Source: Acidovorax sp. Leaf191 (GTDB lineage: Bacteria > Pseudomonadota > Gammaproteobacteria > Burkholderiales > Burkholderiaceae_C). From it: a stretch of DNA of 64,000 nt. This document shows positions 2,886-60,421 of the stretch, piece after piece. The translations under genes and the position numbers were made by a program. Position 1 is the first letter of the stretch; each line of letters starts with the position of its first letter. The DNA lies in contig NZ_LMPT01000019.1 in NCBI RefSeq assembly GCF_001424425.1, positions 495,003 to 559,002 on the forward strand. The letters are read 5' to 3'. The notes beneath the pieces were generated by a model. That model did no database searches. It was not told the origin of the DNA and was given only the letters and a program-made list of their open reading frames with translations.

Positions 2886-3974
2886 TCAGAGATTGGGTGA
2901 ATCGGGCATGGTAGCGGCGGCGCGCTGCACATCGTGGAAGGCGCGGGCCAGCGCCTGCTGCGCAGCGGGCGCGAGCACCCCCAGCCGCACGTGGCCGGGC
3001 AGGCCGAACGAGCTGCAGTCGCGCAGCTTGATGCCGTGGGCGCGCAAGCCGTGCAGGACACGCTCCGTCTGCTCCGCGTGGGCGAAAGGCCACTGCGCCA
3101 CGACATAGTTGGCCAGGCTGCCGGCCACCACACGCCAGCCCAGGGCGGTGCACAGCGCCTGCTGGGCAGACTTCCACCCGCGCAGCGTGTCCAGGCTGTG
3201 CTGCAGCCATTGCTGCACGGCGGGCTGCGCCCAGGCGGCGAGCATGGCCACGCCATGCGCGCCCACGGGCCACGACGGCGCCAGGCCCTGCAGCGCGGCG
3301 ATGCGCCCGGGCGTCTCGTGCGCCGGGGCTATCGCGTAAGCGGCGCGCACGCCGGTCAGGCCCAGCGCCTTGTTGGGCGTCCACAGCTGCCAGGCCGACG
3401 GGGGCGCGTGGGTGGGCTGGCCGTCCAGGCGCAGCGGCGCGTAGGCGCAGTCCAGCACCTGCAGGGCGACTGCCGTTCCGCAGCCGTGTGCGTGCCACAG
3501 GGCCAGCGCCGGGTCCACCTGGCCCAGCGGGCTCGACGGCTCGCACGCCCAGTGCAGGCCTGCAGCGGCCTGCAAGCCGCCGGCTGCGGCATGCAGCACC
3601 TGCAGGCCCCAGGCCTGCGCCGCGTGCGCGTAGTCGCCGTAGCTGTGCGCCGGCACGGCCACGCGGGTGGCACCCTGGCGCGCTGCCCAGGCCGTGGCGC
3701 GGTGAATGAATTCGCTGGCGCTGCCAGCCAGCACGATGCGGCCCGGATCCACGGCATGCAGGCCGGCCAGTTGGACACGCAGCGCCGTGTACGCAGGGTC
3801 GGGATAGCGGCTGGCATCGGCCGCCTGCACGCTGCGCAGCGCCTGCGGGCACGGGCCGCAGGCGTTGCTGTTGGTCGAAAAATCGTGCAGCGGGACGCCC
3901 CCAGCGTCCGGCCCGCCGTGCAGCGGCAAGGCGGCGACAGCGGTGTCGATCTCCATGGGCGTGACCGCGTTCAT
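2886..3974 (-). CDS. cobC: L-threonine-O-3-phosphate decarboxylase CobC (CobD-type aminotransferase fold)
   Basis: This PLP enzyme makes (R)-1-amino-2-propanol O-2-phosphate, the linker between corrin ring and nucleotide loop, by decarboxylating threonine phosphate. The 362-residue protein has the class I/II aminotransferase fold. The N-terminal DFSTNSNACG stands in place of the usual DFSxNxNPxGP. The likely PLP lysine is Lys202 in WTPNKALGL, with DCAYAPLRLDG before it. The start ATG 3974 overlaps the cbiB stop as ATGA, which excludes the longer reading that runs back through cbiB. Its product is used directly by CbiB, encoded just upstream. Naming is ambiguous: CobC in the aerobic scheme, CobD in Salmonella. 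Confidence 0.88.
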   Translation of the reverse strand: MNAVTPMEIDTAVAALPLHGGPDAGGVPLHDFSTNSNACGPCPQALRSVQAADASRYPDPAYTALRVQLAGLHAVDPGRIVLAGSASEFIHRATAWAARQGATRVAVPAHSYGDYAHAAQAWGLQVLHAAAGGLQAAAGLHWACEPSSPLGQVDPALALWHAHGCGTAVALQVLDCAYAPLRLDGQPTHAPPSAWQLWTPNKALGLTGVRAAYAIAPAHETPGRIAALQGLAPSWPVGAHGVAMLAAWAQPAVQQWLQHSLDTLRGWKSAQQALCTALGWRVVAGSLANYVVAQWPFAHAEQTERVLHGLRAHGIKLRDCSSFGLPGHVRLGVLAPAAQQALARAFHDVQRAAATMPDSPNL

Positions 3975-4981
3975 GGCCTGGCCCCGCCCATCAGCGCCAT
4001 GGCCGCCAACGCCACCAGCACCTGCAGCGCTACCACCACCGGCACCAGCATCAGCACGACCTTGTCGCCCTGGCGCGCCGCGCGGCGCGTGTCCAGCGGC
4101 CCGGGGGAGCGTGCCGCGCCGTTGAGCGCATACACACCGGGCTTGGCCAGCCGCACGTTCAGCGACAGCGCCATGGCCGCCATGGGCCAGCCGCTGTTGG
4201 GCGACGGCGTCTTGCGCGCCTGCCGCACCAGCGTGCGCAGCGGCAGGCCCCCGGCTGCCAGCGCCAGCAGCAGCGCCGCGATGCGGGCAGGCACCCACGA
4301 CAGCACGTCGTCCGCCCGCGCCGCCCACTTGCCGGCCCATTGCCAATACCGCCCGCCGCGCATGCCCGGGTAGCCCCACATCGCATCCGCCGTGTTGGCC
4401 ATGCGGTACAGCGCGGCGCCGGGCAGCCCCAGCAGCGCAAACCAGAACAGCGGCGCCACCACCGAATCGTTGAGGTTCTCGGCCAGCGACTCGATGGCCG
4501 ACTCGCGCACCTCGTCGGCCGTCAACGCGCTCACATCGCGGCTCACCAGCCGCGACAGGCGCTCGCGCCCTGCGGGCAGCGACTGGCCCAGCGCGACCTC
4601 CACCGCCAGCACCTCATCGCGCAGCATGCGCCAGGCCAGCAGGGGCTTGAGCAGCAGCCCCAGCAAGGCCATGGCCAGCAGCCCATACAGCGCCAGCGCC
4701 GCGTGCTGCGCCAGACCAGACACTATCAAAACAATAGCTGCCAGCGCACACCAGAAGAGCGCTGCTAGCCAAAAACGCTTCCAATCCGCTGCCACGGGGG
4801 CGGTGGGCGCAACCTGGTCGCCACCGTACTGCAGCGCCTTGCCCATCCACACCACAGGGTGGCAGGCCGCGGGCGGCTCCCCCAGCCACCCGTCGATGGC
4901 CAGGGCCAGCACGGGCACGCAGATCAGCACGCGCAGGGCGTCCCACTGCGTGGGAGGAAGAAGCAAGACCAAAACGTCCAT
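3971..4981 (-). CDS. cbiB: Adenosylcobinamide-phosphate synthase CbiB
   Basis: This integral membrane enzyme joins aminopropanol phosphate (from CobC) to adenosylcobyric acid. The 336-residue length is normal for the family. Recognisable blocks are DGWLGEPPAACHPVVWMGK near the N-terminus, SVAPL-like NDSVVAPLFW and the ANTADAMWGYPG block, with about five hydrophobic segments. It overlaps cobC by four bases (ATGA). Codons for about residues 69-87, in a membrane segment, fall on a copy of the dispersed hairpin repeat (4721-4777). The segment stays hydrophobic, so function is probably kept. The gap to the upstream DUF1636 gene is 25 bases. Confidence 0.93.
   Translation of the reverse strand: MDVLVLLLPPTQWDALRVLICVPVLALAIDGWLGEPPAACHPVVWMGKALQYGGDQVAPTAPVAADWKRFWLAALFWCALAAIVLIVSGLAQHAALALYGLLAMALLGLLLKPLLAWRMLRDEVLAVEVALGQSLPAGRERLSRLVSRDVSALTADEVRESAIESLAENLNDSVVAPLFWFALLGLPGAALYRMANTADAMWGYPGMRGGRYWQWAGKWAARADDVLSWVPARIAALLLALAAGGLPLRTLVRQARKTPSPNSGWPMAAMALSLNVRLAKPGVYALNGAARSPGPLDTRRAARQGDKVVLMLVPVVVALQVLVALAAMALMGGARP
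4721..4777 (+). repeat. Dispersed hairpin repeat, copy inside cbiB
   Basis: The element reads CACTATCAAAACAATAGCTG, then GCGCACACC, then AGAGCGCTGCTAGCC and an A-run. It aligns with the copies at 18272, 24361, 40368 (inverted), 50626, 57680 and 60260. It is antisense to cbiB and is translated as part of a membrane segment. Its right half differs from most copies (AGCGCTGCTAGCC instead of AGCGGTAGCGGC), suggesting a subfamily. Confidence 0.6.
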
Positions 4982-15379: not shown

Positions 15380-16153
15380 TCAGCGCGGCAACGCCACCCA
15401 CTGCCCCAGCAGCGCGTGCACCGCGATGCGGTCGTCAAACACAGCCTCCAGCGCACGGTGCGTGGCGGGCTCATCACAGCCGCCCTGGTGCGTGACGCGG
15501 CCCTTGGCCATCACCACCATCTCATCGGCCTGCAGCGCCAGCGACACCTCGTGCAGCACGCTGACCACCGTGGCGCCGCCGGCCACCAGGGCGCGCACCG
15601 TGTGCAGCCAGTCCGTCTGGTGCGGCGGGTCCAGGTTGGCCAGGGGTTCGTCCATCAGCAGCACCTGCGCCTGCACCGCCAGCGCACGCGCCAGCAGCAC
15701 ACGCTGGCGCTCGCCGCCCGACAGCTGCGACAAGGGGCGGTCGCGCCAGTCCCAGGCCTGCGTGGTGCGCAGCGCCTGCTCCACGGCGGCGTGGTCGGCG
15801 GGCGATGGTGGGGCCAGCCAGGGCTGGTGCGGCAGGCGGCCCAGCATGGCCACGTCGTAACTCGTGAGGTCGTCGGCCGAGCCTTCGTTCTGGCCCAGCC
15901 AGGACAGTGTTCGCGCCCGCTCGCGCGCCGGCACCTGGGTGAGCGGGCGGCCGAGCAGCGCCACCTGGCCGTCGACCTGGCCGCGCGGCAGCAGGCCCGC
16001 CAGCACCTTGAGCAGCGTGGACTTGCCCGCGCCGTTGGGCCCGACGATGCTGGTCCAGCAGCCCGCGGGCAGGTGCAGGTCGATGCCGTGCAGCACCTCG
16101 GCGCCGCCCACGCGCACGGTCATGCCGTGGGCGCTCAATGCCGCGCCCGTCAC
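15380..16153 (-). CDS. btuD: Vitamin B12 ABC transporter ATPase BtuD
   Basis: The 257-residue ABC ATPase has Walker A GPNGAGKST, signature LSGGERQRV, Walker B VLLMDEP and the H-loop in SVLHEVS. It couples ATP hydrolysis to B12 import through BtuC. The start is a GTG at 16153 that overlaps the btuC stop as GTGA, keeping it 257 residues, normal for BtuD/FecE. The order btuF-btuC-btuD and the cobalamin setting favour B12 over iron-siderophore transport. Confidence 0.9.
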   Translation of the reverse strand: MTGAALSAHGMTVRVGGAEVLHGIDLHLPAGCWTSIVGPNGAGKSTLLKVLAGLLPRGQVDGQVALLGRPLTQVPARERARTLSWLGQNEGSADDLTSYDVAMLGRLPHQPWLAPPSPADHAAVEQALRTTQAWDWRDRPLSQLSGGERQRVLLARALAVQAQVLLMDEPLANLDPPHQTDWLHTVRALVAGGATVVSVLHEVSLALQADEMVVMAKGRVTHQGGCDEPATHRALEAVFDDRIAVHALLGQWVALPR

Positions 16154-17187: not shown

Positions 17188-18086
17188 CGGGCCTTCTCCA
17201 CAAGGCACCGGGCCATGATGCGGGCGGCCTCGGCCATGCGCGGGCCGGGGCGCACCACCACTTCGGCATCGCCGGGGCCGAACACGCACACGCGGTTTTC
17301 GCGCACGGCGCGCATCGTGGACCAGCCGGGGTACGGCACCATGGTCTGCATGCTGCTGTTGCCGATCATCAGCACGTCGGGGTTGGCGCGCACCACGTAT
17401 TCGGGGTTCAGGCGCGGGAAGGGGCCGAGCGATGCGGGCACCACGTTGCGCACGCCCAGGCGCGTGAGCGATTCGCCGATGAAGGACGACTCGCTGGCCG
17501 CATACGGGCCGCGGCTCACTTCGAAGTACACCCGCAGGTTGCGCGCCTTGGGCGGCAGCGATTGGGCTGCGGCCTGCACGGCGGCGTCGATGGTGCGCCA
17601 CTGCCGGTCGGAGCCTTGCGCCCGGGGCACGCCCAGCAGGTCGCTGATGGTGCCCAGCACGCGGCGCACGTCGGCATGGGTCTTGGGTTCGAGCTGCACG
17701 ACGGTGATACCGAGCGCCTGCAGCCGGTCGCTGGCGCGGGAACTGACGGACATGAGCACCACGTCGGGCTTGAGGGCCACGATGGCCTCGATGCTGGGGT
17801 CCAGGCCACCGCCGACCTTGGGCAGCTTGCCGATCACCGCCTCGGGCCAGTTGGAATAGCGGTCCGTGCCCACGATGCGGTGGCATTGGTCCAGCTCGCA
17901 CACGCTCTCGGTCAGCGATGGCAGCAGGCTCACGATGCGCTGGGGCGGCTGCGCCAGCGCAATCTCGCGGCCCCGGTCGTCCTGGATGCGCACCGACTGC
18001 GCACGCGCCAGCCCCGCCATCAGCAGGCCCAGCGCAATGACGATGGCAATCACCCACAGGATGCGGCGCACGGGGGTCGGCTTCAT
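17184..18086 (-). CDS. btuF: BtuF-like cobalamin-binding protein (second paralogue, in the btuCD operon)
   Basis: The 300-residue binding protein has an N-terminal membrane or signal segment (WVIAIVIALGLLMAGLARAQ), then RIVSLLPSLTESVCELD, VGTDRYSNWP and KLPKVGGGLDPSIE. It should capture cobalamin in the periplasm for BtuCD. It overlaps cobU (ATGA) upstream and btuC (GTGA) downstream, which makes it the dedicated partner of this transporter. The other paralogue (12343-13203) is about 4 kb downstream. Whether the two differ in corrinoid preference cannot be told from sequence alone. Confidence 0.9.
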   Translation of the reverse strand: MKPTPVRRILWVIAIVIALGLLMAGLARAQSVRIQDDRGREIALAQPPQRIVSLLPSLTESVCELDQCHRIVGTDRYSNWPEAVIGKLPKVGGGLDPSIEAIVALKPDVVLMSVSSRASDRLQALGITVVQLEPKTHADVRRVLGTISDLLGVPRAQGSDRQWRTIDAAVQAAAQSLPPKARNLRVYFEVSRGPYAASESSFIGESLTRLGVRNVVPASLGPFPRLNPEYVVRANPDVLMIGNSSMQTMVPYPGWSTMRAVRENRVCVFGPGDAEVVVRPGPRMAEAARIMARCLVEKAR

Positions 18087-18703
18087 GCGGCGGGCTCCTT
18101 CAAGGTGAGGGGCAGGCCCGCCGCCATCAGCGTGACGCGGGGGCACACCTGGGCCACCTGCTGGTTGAGGGCGCCCAGCGCATCGACAAAAGCGCGCACC
18201 TCGCGGCCCATCGGGATGACGCCCAGGCCGATTTCGTTGCCCACCAGGATGACGGGGCCGGGGGATGCGGCGATTGCTCCTAAAAACATAGCTGCCTGCG
18301 CTTGCCAGTTGCGCGACAGGGCCTGTTTTTGCTCCAAATTCATGCTCTCGGCGCCCAGGGGCATCGTCCACTGGGTGAGCCACAGCGTGAGGCAGTCCAC
18401 CACCAGCAGGGTGTGCGCCGTGCTGCGCTGCGCGATGGCGGACGCTACATCGAGCGGCTCCTCCACGGTCACGAGGCCCGGCACGCGCTCGGCGCGGTCG
18501 CGCTGGTGGCGTGCGATGCGTTCGCGCATCTCGTCGTCCCAGGGCTGGCCGGTGGCGATCAGCACCGCGCGGTGGTCGGCGGACTGTGCCAGCCAGTCGC
18601 GCGCCAGCAGTTCGGCGCGGCGGGACTTGCCGCTTTTTTGGCCACCCAGGATGAGCTCGGTGGTGATGGCTTGCGAAGGGTGCGGTGCGGACATGGCCGT
18701 CAT
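18083..18703 (-). CDS. cobU: Adenosylcobinamide kinase / adenosylcobinamide-phosphate guanylyltransferase CobU
   Basis: This bifunctional enzyme phosphorylates adenosylcobinamide and transfers GMP to it. The 206-residue protein has the P-loop GGQKSGKS (20-27), VVDCLTLWLTQW and VGNEIGLGVIPMGREVRAF, the standard CobU blocks. ATG 18703 overlaps the cobB stop as ATGA. Residues about 120-143 (EQKQALSRNWQAQAAMFLGA) are encoded by a copy of the dispersed hairpin repeat, in a region that varies between CobU proteins, so activity is probably retained. Confidence 0.94.
   Translation of the reverse strand: MTAMSAPHPSQAITTELILGGQKSGKSRRAELLARDWLAQSADHRAVLIATGQPWDDEMRERIARHQRDRAERVPGLVTVEEPLDVASAIAQRSTAHTLLVVDCLTLWLTQWTMPLGAESMNLEQKQALSRNWQAQAAMFLGAIAASPGPVILVGNEIGLGVIPMGREVRAFVDALGALNQQVAQVCPRVTLMAAGLPLTLKEPAA
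18272..18345 (+). repeat. Dispersed hairpin repeat, copy inside cobU
   Basis: The copy reads ATTGCTCCTAAAAACATAGC, TGCCTGCGCTTGCC, then CAGGGCCTGTTTTTGC. It aligns with the shared left half (TTGCTNCTAAAAA, ATAGCTGCCTGCGCTT) and has a divergent right half. It is antisense to cobU and is read in the same frame as the copies in cbiB and in the enoyl-CoA hydratase gene. Confidence 0.6.
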
Positions 18704-22087: not shown

Positions 22088-22123
22088 GGCTGCGCTTTGC
22101 CCAAAAAAGGCGTGGGCGCAGCC
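22088..22123 (-). promoter_or_regulatory. Switching hairpin downstream of the cobalamin riboswitch
   Basis: GGCTGCGC and GCGCAGCC form a perfect eight-base stem, with a possible inner GCCCA/TGGGC stem. Its first bases overlap the 3' strand of riboswitch helix P1 (22125-22121), so the two cannot form together. This suggests it is the alternative structure used without ligand. Confidence 0.5.
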
Positions 22124-22308
22124 ACCGTGTTGGCCGGTATCCGGGCTGGCGGAACGCCCTCCAACGCCTTCCCACACGCTTGTTCAAGGCGCACAGTGGC
22201 TTGTGATGGAGAGAGAATCGGGTGATTCGTCCGCTGACCGTTGCGGGGGCAGCGCAGGCTCGGCGTGCCATGCGTGGCACGCCTCCCTGCTTCCCGTTGA
22301 ACTGCGGC
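22121..22308 (-). ncRNA. Cobalamin (AdoCbl) riboswitch
   Basis: Read on the minus strand, the order of conserved blocks is CAACGGGAAGC, GCTGCCCCCGCAACGG, GCCACTG, GGGAAGGCG and the B12 box CCAGCCCGGATACCGGCC. This is the canonical cobalamin riboswitch. A GGCGTGCC/GGCACGCC hairpin sits inside it. GCCGC (22308-22304) and GTGGC (22125-22121) can form the closing helix. It lies about 90 bases before btuB and is the only such element I find in the window, so it probably governs the start of the cobalamin transcript. No promoter was picked out upstream. Confidence 0.93.
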
Positions 22309-22385
22309 ATGTGAACCACACCGCGAGCACCAACCTCGGGATTTTACGGCCGATTACAAACCGCCACCCTACAATCGGGGGCTCT

Positions 22386-24290: not shown

Positions 24291-24360
24291 CCGGGGCTGG
24301 GCTGGCCGCCGGGCGGCTGCGGGCTACGGCGCAGCAAGAGCGTACCTGCGAGAGCAGCAC

Positions 24361-24420
24361 GCTACCATATTGATAGCTGCTTGCGCTGATCCATCAAGCG
24401 GTAGCGGCATTTTTTGCATT
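24361..24420 (+). repeat. Dispersed hairpin repeat, intergenic copy
   Basis: The copy reads GCTACCATATTGATAGCTGC, TTGCGCTGATCC, ATCAAGCGGTAGCGGC and a T-run. The halves GCTGCT and AGCGGC plus CGCT and AGCG can pair. It lies between the convergent TauE and GGDEF-EAL genes, and with its T-run may act as a bidirectional terminator. The remaining 24291-24528 sequence shows nothing else I can name. Confidence 0.8.
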
Positions 24421-24528
24421 GAATTCACCTGCGGGACCAGGCCACTGGACCCGCATGCAACGGCGCAGTGGCACAGCGCAGCGACCGCACAGGCGCCCCG
24501 CGCGCACTCTGCGCCCCCACGCCAACGC

Positions 24529-39912: not shown

Positions 39913-40356
39913 ATGTACAAGCGTATCCTGATCCCCACAGACGGCTCGCCGCTGTCGGACAAGGCAGTCAACCACGGCCTGGCGCTGGCGGCCCTGTCGG
40001 GCGCCACGGTGGTGGCGCTGAAGGTGGTGCCGCGCTACCCGCGCAGCTACTTCGAAGGCGGCATGTCGGTGGACCTGAACGATGCCCAGCGCATCGAGGC
40101 GCAGTGGGCGGCCGAAGCCCAGGCCATGGTGGACAAGGTGAAGGCCGAGGGCGGCGCCCAGGGCGTCACGGTGAAGGCCGTGGTCGCCAAGTCCGACCTG
40201 GTGGCCGAAGCCGTGATCTCGGCCGCCAAGAAGCACAAGTGCGACCTGATCGTCATGGCGTCGCACGGCCGCAAGGGCCTCAAGCGCCTGCTGCTGGGCA
40301 GCGAGACGCAGCACGTGCTGACGCACTCGCACATCCCGGTGCTGGTGCTGCGCTAA
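39913..40356 (+). CDS. Universal stress protein (UspA family)
   Basis: The 147-residue protein has the single UspA domain (ILIPTDGSPLSDKAVNHGLALA) and the nucleotide-binding signature GRKGLKRLLLGSET. Such proteins aid survival in stress or low oxygen. SD sequence AAGGAG is seven bases from the start. The FNR box and -10 upstream suggest low-oxygen induction. It converges on livF. Confidence 0.93.
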   Translation: MYKRILIPTDGSPLSDKAVNHGLALAALSGATVVALKVVPRYPRSYFEGGMSVDLNDAQRIEAQWAAEAQAMVDKVKAEGGAQGVTVKAVVAKSDLVAEAVISAAKKHKCDLIVMASHGRKGLKRLLLGSETQHVLTHSHIPVLVLR

Positions 40357-40367
40357 GGCCCCGAAGT

Positions 40368-40417
40368 GCTGCTACCGCTTGATGGAAAAGCGCTAGCAGC
40401 TATCAAATCAGTAGCAA
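40368..40417 (-). repeat. Dispersed hairpin repeat, intergenic copy in opposite orientation
   Basis: This is the most symmetric copy. Read on the minus strand GCTGCTA pairs with TAGCAGC and, inside it, CGCTT with AAGCG around a TTCCATC loop. It occupies the short gap between the convergent stress-protein and livF genes. Confidence 0.85.
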
Positions 40418-40440
40418 ACGCTCCACTGGCCGACATCCGG

Positions 40441-50533: not shown

Positions 50534-51364
50534 TCAGAACGCGGGCGGGCGTTTTTCAAGAAAGGCGGTGATGCCCTCGCGGTGCTCGGCACTGTCGGCA
50601 TAGGCATACGGTCCAGGCAGGGAATTCACTATATTTTCGATAGCTGGTGGCGCTTGTCCATCCAGCGGTAGCGGCGTTTTCAATGCCCGAAACGTCTGCT
50701 TGTTCATGCGCGCGGCGCGTGGCGCCAGGGCGGCGACGCGCACCGCACTGGCCAGGGCCTCGGTGGCTACCGCGTCATCGGCCACCACGCGGCTCAGAAA
50801 GCCGCGCGCGAGCATGTCGCTGGCGTTGAAGGTGGCGGCCTCCAGCAGCATCTGGCGTGCCGTCACATCGCCCACCGCGCCGGCCACCAGCTGCGCCTCG
50901 CGCGGGGCCATCGGAAACCCCAGCCTGGCAATCGGCGCCCCGAAACGCGCGGCCTGGCCCGCAATGCGGATGTCGCAGCAGGCGGCAATCTCCACCCCCG
51001 CCCCCATGCACGCCCCGTCGATGCGCGCCACGATGGGCACGTCGCACGCCAGCATGGCGGCCAGACCGCCCCACACATCGTTCTCGTGAAAGTCGCGCAA
51101 GGCAGCGGCATCAAAACGGAACGCGGGGTACTCGGAGATATCGCCCCCCGCACAGAACGCCCCGCCCTCCCCCGCCACGATCACGCAGCGCACGCTGTCG
51201 TCACCCCCGTCGGACCGCTGCTGGATGCCTGTGAACACCTCCCGCAAATGCCGCCACATCGCACGCGACATCGCATTCAGGCGCCCGGTGTGCCGCAGCG
51301 TGACCTGCACCACGCCGCGCTCACCCGCATCCGCTACCACCACTTCACCCGACATAGTGCCCAT
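50534..51364 (-). CDS. Enoyl-CoA hydratase/isomerase family protein
   Basis: The 276-residue crotonase-family protein has the oxyanion-hole block FCAGGDISEY, DGACMGAGVEIAACCDIRIA and RFGAPIARLGFPM. Its acyl-CoA substrate is unclear. Residues about 229-247 (TPLPLDGQAPPAIENIVNS) are encoded by a dispersed hairpin repeat near the C-terminus. It lies between a TctC-type gene and matB, so it is probably part of the malonate operon. An alternative ATG is three codons in (51355). Confidence 0.87.
   Translation of the reverse strand: MGTMSGEVVVADAGERGVVQVTLRHTGRLNAMSRAMWRHLREVFTGIQQRSDGGDDSVRCVIVAGEGGAFCAGGDISEYPAFRFDAAALRDFHENDVWGGLAAMLACDVPIVARIDGACMGAGVEIAACCDIRIAGQAARFGAPIARLGFPMAPREAQLVAGAVGDVTARQMLLEAATFNASDMLARGFLSRVVADDAVATEALASAVRVAALAPRAARMNKQTFRALKTPLPLDGQAPPAIENIVNSLPGPYAYADSAEHREGITAFLEKRPPAF
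50626..50682 (+). repeat. Dispersed hairpin repeat, copy inside the enoyl-CoA hydratase gene
   Basis: The copy reads CACTATATTTTCGATAGCTG, GTGGCGCTTGTCCATCC, AGCGGTAGCGGCGTTTT. It is antisense to the gene and is read without stop as PLPLDGQAPPAIENIV. This is the clearest intragenic copy. Confidence 0.8.
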
Positions 51365-60237: not shown

Positions 60238-60259
60238 CCGCCCGGTGCCTCACACCGGC

Positions 60260-60316
60260 ATTGCTACAAAAATAGTAGCTACAAAGCATTACCAGTCAAG
60301 CGGCAGGCACCTTAAA
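60260..60316 (+). repeat. Dispersed hairpin repeat, copy between fecR and the receptor gene
   Basis: The copy reads ATTGCTACAAAAATAGTAGC, TACAAAGCATTACCAG, TCAAGCGGCAGGCAC. It is the most diverged copy, yet it keeps the AGCGG block and the A-rich start. Confidence 0.6.
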
Positions 60317-60421
60317 TGGCATTGACTGCATAACTCGCGAAATTTTTTTGACCCCGGGTTTGCAGGTTTGGCGTGCCTTGAGCGGCATACCAATGAACCC
60401 GCTGAGCGCCCAGAAGAATCC

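Follow-up and report, generated by a model that had tools for sequence, protein, structure and literature searches.

The window analysed here is the whole 64,000-nucleotide stretch of Acidovorax sp. Leaf191 DNA (contig NZ_LMPT01000019.1, positions 495,003–559,002). A short repeat at window positions 24356–24427 lies between two convergent genes and contains two dyad-symmetric motifs. Six further copies are present in the window and are listed below with their host or neighbouring genes; scores in bits are from a position weight matrix, E values are from a covariance model (CM) and copies are named by their first position.

3971–4930, minus strand: cbiB/cobD (CbiB by NCBIfam and Pfam), host of copy 4717
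4717–4788, plus strand: divergent copy within cbiB, antisense to the gene, with the frame open throughout; 48 bits; CM E = 0.055
18083–18703, minus strand: cobU (family search), host of copy 18271
18271–18342, plus strand: copy within cobU, antisense and in frame; 69 bits
24356–24427, plus strand: copy between convergent genes, with a TauE/SafE-like gene (Pfam) upstream; 76 bits; CM E = 2.2e-12
24361–24377, plus strand: dyad 1 of copy 24356, GCTA-N9-TAGC (columns 6–9 and 19–22)
24384–24400, plus strand: dyad 2 of copy 24356, CGCTg-N7-AAGCG (consensus CGCTT-N7-AAGCG; columns 29–33 and 41–45), 6 nt past dyad 1
40349–40420, minus strand: intergenic copy flanked by convergent genes, with one edge reaching into the end of a universal stress protein gene (Usp); 69 bits; CM E = 2e-14
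50534–51355, minus strand: enoyl-CoA hydratase/isomerase gene (family search), host of copy 50623
50623–50694, plus strand: antisense, in-frame copy towards the 3' end of the enoyl-CoA hydratase gene; 67 bits
57677–57748, plus strand: near-consensus copy between convergent genes, adjoining lgt (LGT); 90 bits; CM E = 3.5e-16
60258–60329, plus strand: divergent copy downstream of a FecR-like gene; 37 bits; CM E = 0.94

A cobalamin riboswitch (22115–22349, minus strand) stands ahead of btuB, in the same B12 region as the in-gene elements of cbiB and cobU.

The family was detected with an ungapped matrix of 72 columns, seeded with 28 pattern-found copies, none of them from the window, and refined on three 400-kb stretches of the source genome (5.87 Mb in 24 contigs). 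A sequence-only reading of the window had claimed a dispersed family of seven copies, and the matrix, trained outside the window, recovers all seven at 37–90 bits; there is no further match of at least 10 bits in the window and none at all in the reversed window. The three 400-kb stretches, which were unselected, were combined with the window into a sample of 1.264 Mb to avoid selected copies. This sample holds 126 copies of at least 25 bits, as counted by a matrix trained on the same non-window copies, or about one per 10 kb. The projected genome-wide total of about 585 bears out the earlier estimate of hundreds of copies at about one per 9 kb. The reversed sample gives no match, and neither codon-shuffled genes (3.16 Mb) nor locally shuffled intergenic DNA (1.05 Mb) give any of at least 15 bits. 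A loose pattern built from the copies matches the genome at 121 places and its backwards reading at none, and a covariance model built from 30 pattern-found copies finds at least 150 matches in the genome, being weaker on two of the window copies (4717 and 60258). In the list of genome places the copies are mostly single, with a few pairs 140–580 nt apart, and the mean GC content of the element is 47.9%. Rfam gives no match at the seven copy positions at gathering scores; with one copy as the query, a plasmid collection gives a single match (Diaphorobacter) and a collection of named phages none.

The majority consensus over the 126 copies is CGATTGCTATTAAATTGATAGCTGCTAGCGCTTGCCCATCAAGCGGTAGCGGCCATTTTTACTCAAAACTCG. 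Its core consists of two dyads of the same 5-7-5 build, GCTAT-N7-ATAGC followed 6 nt later by CGCTT-N7-AAGCG. Dyad 1 encloses an A/T-rich spacer, and a T-rich or A-rich tail often follows the dyads (a T run in 63 of the 126 copies and an A run in 18 of the 126 tails). The 24 strongest columns are 7–9, 13–15, 18–23, 26, 29, 30, 32, 42–45, 47, 48, 57 and 58. The spacing is rigid: in a matrix-free pattern search, GCT[AC]-N9-TAGC is followed by CGCTT at exactly 6 nt in 56 of 57 cases. Dyad 1 was rejected as a stand-alone site, as it occurs in 166 strand-counts inside elements and six outside (the reversed-sequence count of 82 reads a different word and is a poor control). The short words that had been described as shared by the window copies are only partly so. 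CGCTT and AAGCG are both complete in copies 40349 and 57677, and the other five deviate at dyad 2 (CGCTG in 24356, CAGCG in 50623, GCGCG in 18271, GCATT in 60258 and neither CGCTT nor AAGCG in 4717).

The same reading had proposed that a folded hairpin is selected or copied, on the grounds that paired stem positions change together. The single example on which this was based, GCTTCT/AGAGGC in copy 57677, does exist. Over the 126 copies, however, the 12 proposed pairs match the expectation for independent columns, all to within 0.03 (for example, 0.40 observed and 0.39 expected for pair 24–50), so that by this test for a structured RNA family a covarying stem is absent. The 30 pattern-chosen copies show a weak signal (the observed value is reached in 33 to 70 of 500 shuffles), the unselected 126 show none, and a second hairpin formed from dyad 1 likewise lacks covariation. 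The covariance-model search that had been suggested thus returns the many genome-wide copies that were anticipated but not the covarying stems. On folding, only copy 57677 of the seven clearly beats its shuffles (z = −4.6; the other six lie between −0.9 and +1.6). Because the named stem does not covary, selection of a folded hairpin is not shown; what is conserved is primary sequence in the form of two dyads.

A further observation concerns the 7-nt loop of dyad 2 (columns 34–40), which occurs in both orientations (68 and 58 of the 126 copies, 12 of them ambiguous). Reverse-complementing one loop class raises the information from 3.00 to 4.77 bits, compared with a maximum of 3.89 in 200 column shuffles, and this two-orientation loop lends weak support to a hairpin. 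The orientation was followed in two relatives, G008 and G016, which are 97% and 85–88% identical to the source genome over a 3-kb test segment. It is kept in 24 of 24 orthologues in G008; in G016 it is kept in 12, seemingly flipped in three and ambiguous in two, and in those three the direct and inverted readings fit about equally well. The symmetry of the dyads makes the two strands read alike, and for that reason these data do not distinguish a DNA site from two RNA hairpins.

Gene calls for the placement analysis were made with our own simple caller, which is based on codon log-odds and not on a published program. Of the 126 copies, 106 are intergenic (38 in convergent, 60 in tandem and eight in divergent gaps) and 20 lie within predicted genes; the sample has 133 convergent, 502 tandem and 158 divergent gaps of at least 40 nt. 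Tandem or convergent gaps thus hold 98 of the 106 intergenic copies, and 77 of the 106 have a gene 3' end no more than 100 nt away, with no fixed offset from the stop codon. Orientation is neutral: copies in tandem gaps run with the genes in 31 cases and against them in 29, in-gene copies are split ten to ten, and head and tail point toward gene 3' ends in 67 and 66 cases. The gap distribution and the balanced orientation together make the placement REP-like and orientation-neutral, and the small number of copies in divergent gaps leans slightly towards transcribed DNA.

The excess in convergent gaps relative to the other two gap types, the proximity to gene 3' ends and the T run in half of the copies would all suit transcription terminators or stabilisers of 3' mRNA ends, in which an RNA hairpin followed by a U run is kept for gene ends. 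We consider this improbable. The even split in tandem gaps means that an orientation test for intrinsic terminators failed, gene 3' ends face the head and the tail of the element equally often, the stems lack compensatory changes, some tails carry an A run instead, and the in-gene copies could not terminate transcription without shortening the message. A role in marking chromosome arms was also considered and is unsupported: in G022, which is a single contig, the distances of the best 150 copies from dnaA are uniformly distributed (KS p = 0.86), and 87 of these 150 run with replication (p = 0.06).

Canonical REPs carry a GTAG tag on the 5' side of the palindrome. In the present family 62 of the 126 copies have GTAG next to the 3' arm of dyad 2, and a 5' GTAG tag is not in the consensus. 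By the description of the REP/GTAG repeats in the parts of PMC3733652 consulted, both are small palindromes in hundreds of copies that occur at the 3' ends of genes, in convergent and tandem gaps, and in part within genes. The differences from GTAG REPs are the 3' position of GTAG, the presence of two dyads, the positional stability of the copies and an own RAYT-like gene that has no element beside it. The main text of PMC3733652 makes no mention of Acidovorax, Comamonas, Delftia or Polaromonas.

The closest precedent for the sequence itself is a 'potential novel motif' of Acidovorax ebreus TPSY, GCTTAT(N)5AAGCG, listed in 2017 in Table 7 of PMC5217627 with 114 copies, 107 of them intergenic (44 between convergent genes) and five in genes. 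This motif corresponds to dyad 2 with one loop variant, and its four matches in the 1.264-Mb sample all lie inside elements. In its section on this motif, PMC5217627 describes neither a second dyad nor the full element, and it reports nothing on reading frames, constraint or distribution. A Polaromonas motif in the same source, ATAGCT(N)22CAAAAG, may be a relative, and it has no match in the own-genome sample. Among open-licence papers, we found nothing in print beyond the 2017 motif on coding copies or constraint of this family. Identity with the Beta-proteobacterial repeat element (BRE) of Bordetella and Comamonadaceae is very remote. The BRE is likewise dispersed in betaproteobacteria, mostly intergenic and sometimes in coding sequence, but by its description in the parts of PMC3110155 consulted it has a mean GC content of 69.0%, a length of 75–91 bp and tandem arrays in Bordetella, compared with 47.9% GC and 72 columns for the present element.

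Spread through related genomes had been anticipated and is indeed found. Matches occur in 45 of 47 genomes of the genus: 41 have from 25 to at least 105, four have one or two, and two have none. The four with one or two matches are the four largest genomes (6.8–7.5 Mb). In 300 kb of the copy-poor genome G002 there are eight weak matches of at least 10 bits (best, 34 bits), which may be decayed copies, and the element-poor genomes in general have presumably lost theirs. A sampling of the family found matches in 72 of 299 genomes and in 40 of 141 genera (under strict filters, with at most 16 scored per genome), and the 16 genomes checked from the order's other families all lack one. An IMG/VR search for the exact two-dyad core yields 45 stretches on 42 viral contigs, compared with four stretches for a control pattern with 8-nt spacing. 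Ten neighbouring genes tested, from six of the 45 stretches, include those for a portal protein, Bet/RecT-like and RecE-like proteins, anti-repressors and a DNA methyltransferase, and therefore at least some copies lie among phage genes. Several of the copies beside phage genes in the IMG/VR contigs (L354–L398) stand directly at gene 3' ends.

Copies read in frame inside genes are found in the window in cbiB, cobU and the enoyl-CoA hydratase gene, and elsewhere in dapF, nadE, rlmI and an NDH-2-type dehydrogenase gene. The names of cbiB, cobU, the hydratase, dapF, rlmI, nadE and thiL were checked by family search and that of NDH-2 by solved relatives; further hosts in the sample are presumably purL, an HrpA-like helicase gene, dadA, glcE and others. 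At least three of the 20 in-gene copies (7989 on C19 and 128765 and 266196 on C12) lie at gene ends, where the gene borders are possibly wrong. The element codes for about 24 residues, and relative to the best solved homologues the element stretch of the hosts has a smaller number of extra residues, counted as gap letters (about 14 in CobU, ten in DapF, ten in the hydratase, seven in ThiL, six in NDH-2 and three in NadE); the element has therefore for the most part taken the place of a variable stretch or merged into one. In-frame residence in conserved genes, with 20 of the 126 copies in predicted genes, is a trait of the Rickettsia palindromic elements (RPEs), which in the parts of PMC10969869 and PMC2229807 consulted are likewise palindromic repeats in frame inside unrelated housekeeping genes. 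Compared by description, RPEs (105–146 or about 150 bp) differ from the present element, which is 72 bp in length, betaproteobacterial and associated with retained rare codons (same parts of those sources).

Such a rare codon is seen in thiL. The copy in this gene was taken from a pattern-selected locus (L049) outside the 1.264-Mb sample, and the comparison covers 39 of the 45 genomes with a match, 33 bearers and six element-poor. The Ile of the LIA motif is encoded by ATA in all 33 bearers and in none of the six element-poor genomes, which have ATG (five) or ATC (one) at this codon. ATA is otherwise rare, making up 185 of 14,574 Ile codons outside elements (1.3%) and four of 252 other Ile codons in the bearer thiL genes. 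When only the gene is scored, the 33 bearers have the element at a single place, to within about 10 nt, and always in the same orientation (15.4 to 89.8 bits), compared with −42.6 to −6.5 bits in the six element-poor genomes. Four of the six element-poor ThiL proteins are 6–10 residues shorter, and ThiL of G002 and G040 retains a similar peptide without the DNA match. The dapF gene, examined in 38 of the 47 genomes, gives a similar picture, with 32 bearers at 30.8 to 82.8 bits at one place and six others at −34.5 to −10.8 bits. In cobU the third-codon GC content is 0.42 inside and 0.86 outside the element (11 bearers), and it is 0.90 for both of the same regions in four element-free Acidovorax. 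Codon identity at unchanged cobU residues hardly differs inside and outside the element (0.78 and 0.75), and protein constraint may partly fix the core letters in genes. Ten of 22 loci with a cobU match (nine from Acidovorax and one from a Gammaproteobacteria-labelled MAG) carry the cobU copy at an identical position; it is weaker (42–44 bits) in three Curvibacter/Hylemonella MAGs and absent in nine loci, four of which are from Acidovorax.

The positions of the copies are stable between close relatives. For a stretch of contig C19 with 32 copies, both flanks were found in G008 for 25, and the element is present in all 25 (one in a 2-kb gap); in G016 both flanks were found for 19, and the element is present in 17. 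As a presence/absence test for a MITE this gives no absent copy among 25 syntenic sites in G008 and two among 19 in G016, neither of which is a clean excision. The expectation that orthologous gaps would be found with and without the element therefore holds only in part: the close relatives offer no clean empty site, and copies do differ between distant species. Of the btuB loci with the flanks of copy 24356, only that of Acidovorax sp. Leaf78 shares this copy, and eight of the 17 btuB loci (L121–L137) carry a copy near locus position 16,000 that is absent from the source genome, Leaf78 and Acidovorax sp. sic0104 (btuB region identity of 99% for Leaf78 and 94% for sic0104).

At these stable positions the letters are not conserved evenly. 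In 14 orthologous intergenic pairs between the source genome and G016, identity is 0.878 over the 24 strongest columns and 0.590 over the 34 weakest, and the core exceeds the weak columns at all 14 loci (bootstrap interval of the difference, 0.217–0.360); the core value is inflated because the copy in the relative must be recognisable, which two of 19 were not. In 19 pairs with G008 the core is 96.3% and the weak columns are 79.1% identical, the core being higher at 15 loci, lower at three and equal at one. Unrelated copies have 0.773 identity in the core and 0.363 in low-information columns, and set against these values neither plain drift nor wholesale replacement fits the G016 pairs well. 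The element as a whole (0.671) is no more conserved than its alignable intergenic neighbours in G016 (0.682, or 0.503 counting gaps); the excess conservation is limited to the core. Concerted evolution, in which gene conversion among copies keeps the core alike without selection, could produce loci such as 127515 and 232754, where low-information identity is 0.29, about that of unrelated copies. The mean of 0.590 is well above the value for unrelated copies and not far below that of the neighbours, and by arithmetic the share of replaced copies that this allows predicts a core identity of about 0.70 rather than that observed, so that we regard this process as a quite improbable explanation.

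A further alternative is that the copies are relics of mobile REP- or MITE-type DNA, spread selfishly by a transposase such as RAYT and alike through shared descent only. The high copy number, the REP-like placement, the RPE-like intragenic copies, the presence in phage-like contigs, the differences among distant species at the btuB loci and the existence of a Y1_Tnp (RAYT-like) gene in the source genome are all in keeping with such an origin. The absence of a clean empty site in two close relatives and the conservation of core columns over other columns at the same loci argue against it, and on balance we hold it to be unlikely. RAYT itself was rejected as the mover: the own Y1_Tnp locus (L090) has no adjoining element, 30 other loci give four weak matches in three loci (E = 0.09–0.93), and the gene is also present in the element-free genome G002. 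Separately, G062 has 37 Y1_Tnp matches, most of the same score and with a 153-residue frame, which look like a recently amplified IS200-like element.

The best reading of these data is that this REP-like dispersed repeat, about 72 bp in length, is old and has been passed on mainly by vertical descent; it occurs in part of its taxonomic family, in Acidovorax and relatives. Among known repeats, the nearest are small REP-like palindromes that occasionally have coding copies, and like GTAG REPs the element lies mainly 3' of genes, in gaps that are tandem or convergent; the tests for a neighbouring RAYT gene, for presence/absence polymorphism and for a structured RNA were each negative. The primary-sequence dyads, their rigid spacing, the orientation neutrality and the near absence of the family from whole genomes point to one sequence-specific factor. 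This putative host factor would probably be symmetric (dimeric) and would recognise the two dyads on DNA or as two short RNA hairpins. Initial spread was presumably by copying or transposition, which would now be rare; copies would retain their core only while the factor is present, and in lineages that lost it hundreds of copies would decay or disappear. That selection keeps the copies of this partly coding palindrome family as sites recognised by such a factor is a proposal to which we give even credence. More tentatively, and with more doubt than belief, a dedicated factor may read some 500–600 chromosomal two-dyad sites, intergenic and in housekeeping genes and in any orientation; phages would carry the same sites, and loss of the factor would free hundreds of sites jointly from constraint, including rare codons in conserved enzymes. 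If true, this would amount to a system that marks DNA or RNA throughout the genome and takes precedence over codon choice.

The role of REP-like repeats in the cell has been an open question for decades. Copy-rich and almost copy-free relatives within one genus provide a natural experiment, and together with copies inside enzymes, where synonymous codons give a readout, they make the choice between function and selfish relic testable. The family also adds a betaproteobacterial case of coding palindromes, which are best known from Rickettsia.

A second palindromic family was met in G002, at the dapF locus (L348). It is young and about 163 bp in length, has the ends GTGTCGCGTCACCG... and gives no match in 1.44 Mb of stretches from the source genome (C19 and C12), G008 and G016. 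In 300 kb of G002 (L261–L275; C2:2600001–2900000) there are 23 copies, 92–96% identical to the dapF insert, and the joined flanks beat the best of 60 random controls at three of the 23 sites. In dapF itself this family forms an in-frame insert of 56 residues at the place of the old element.
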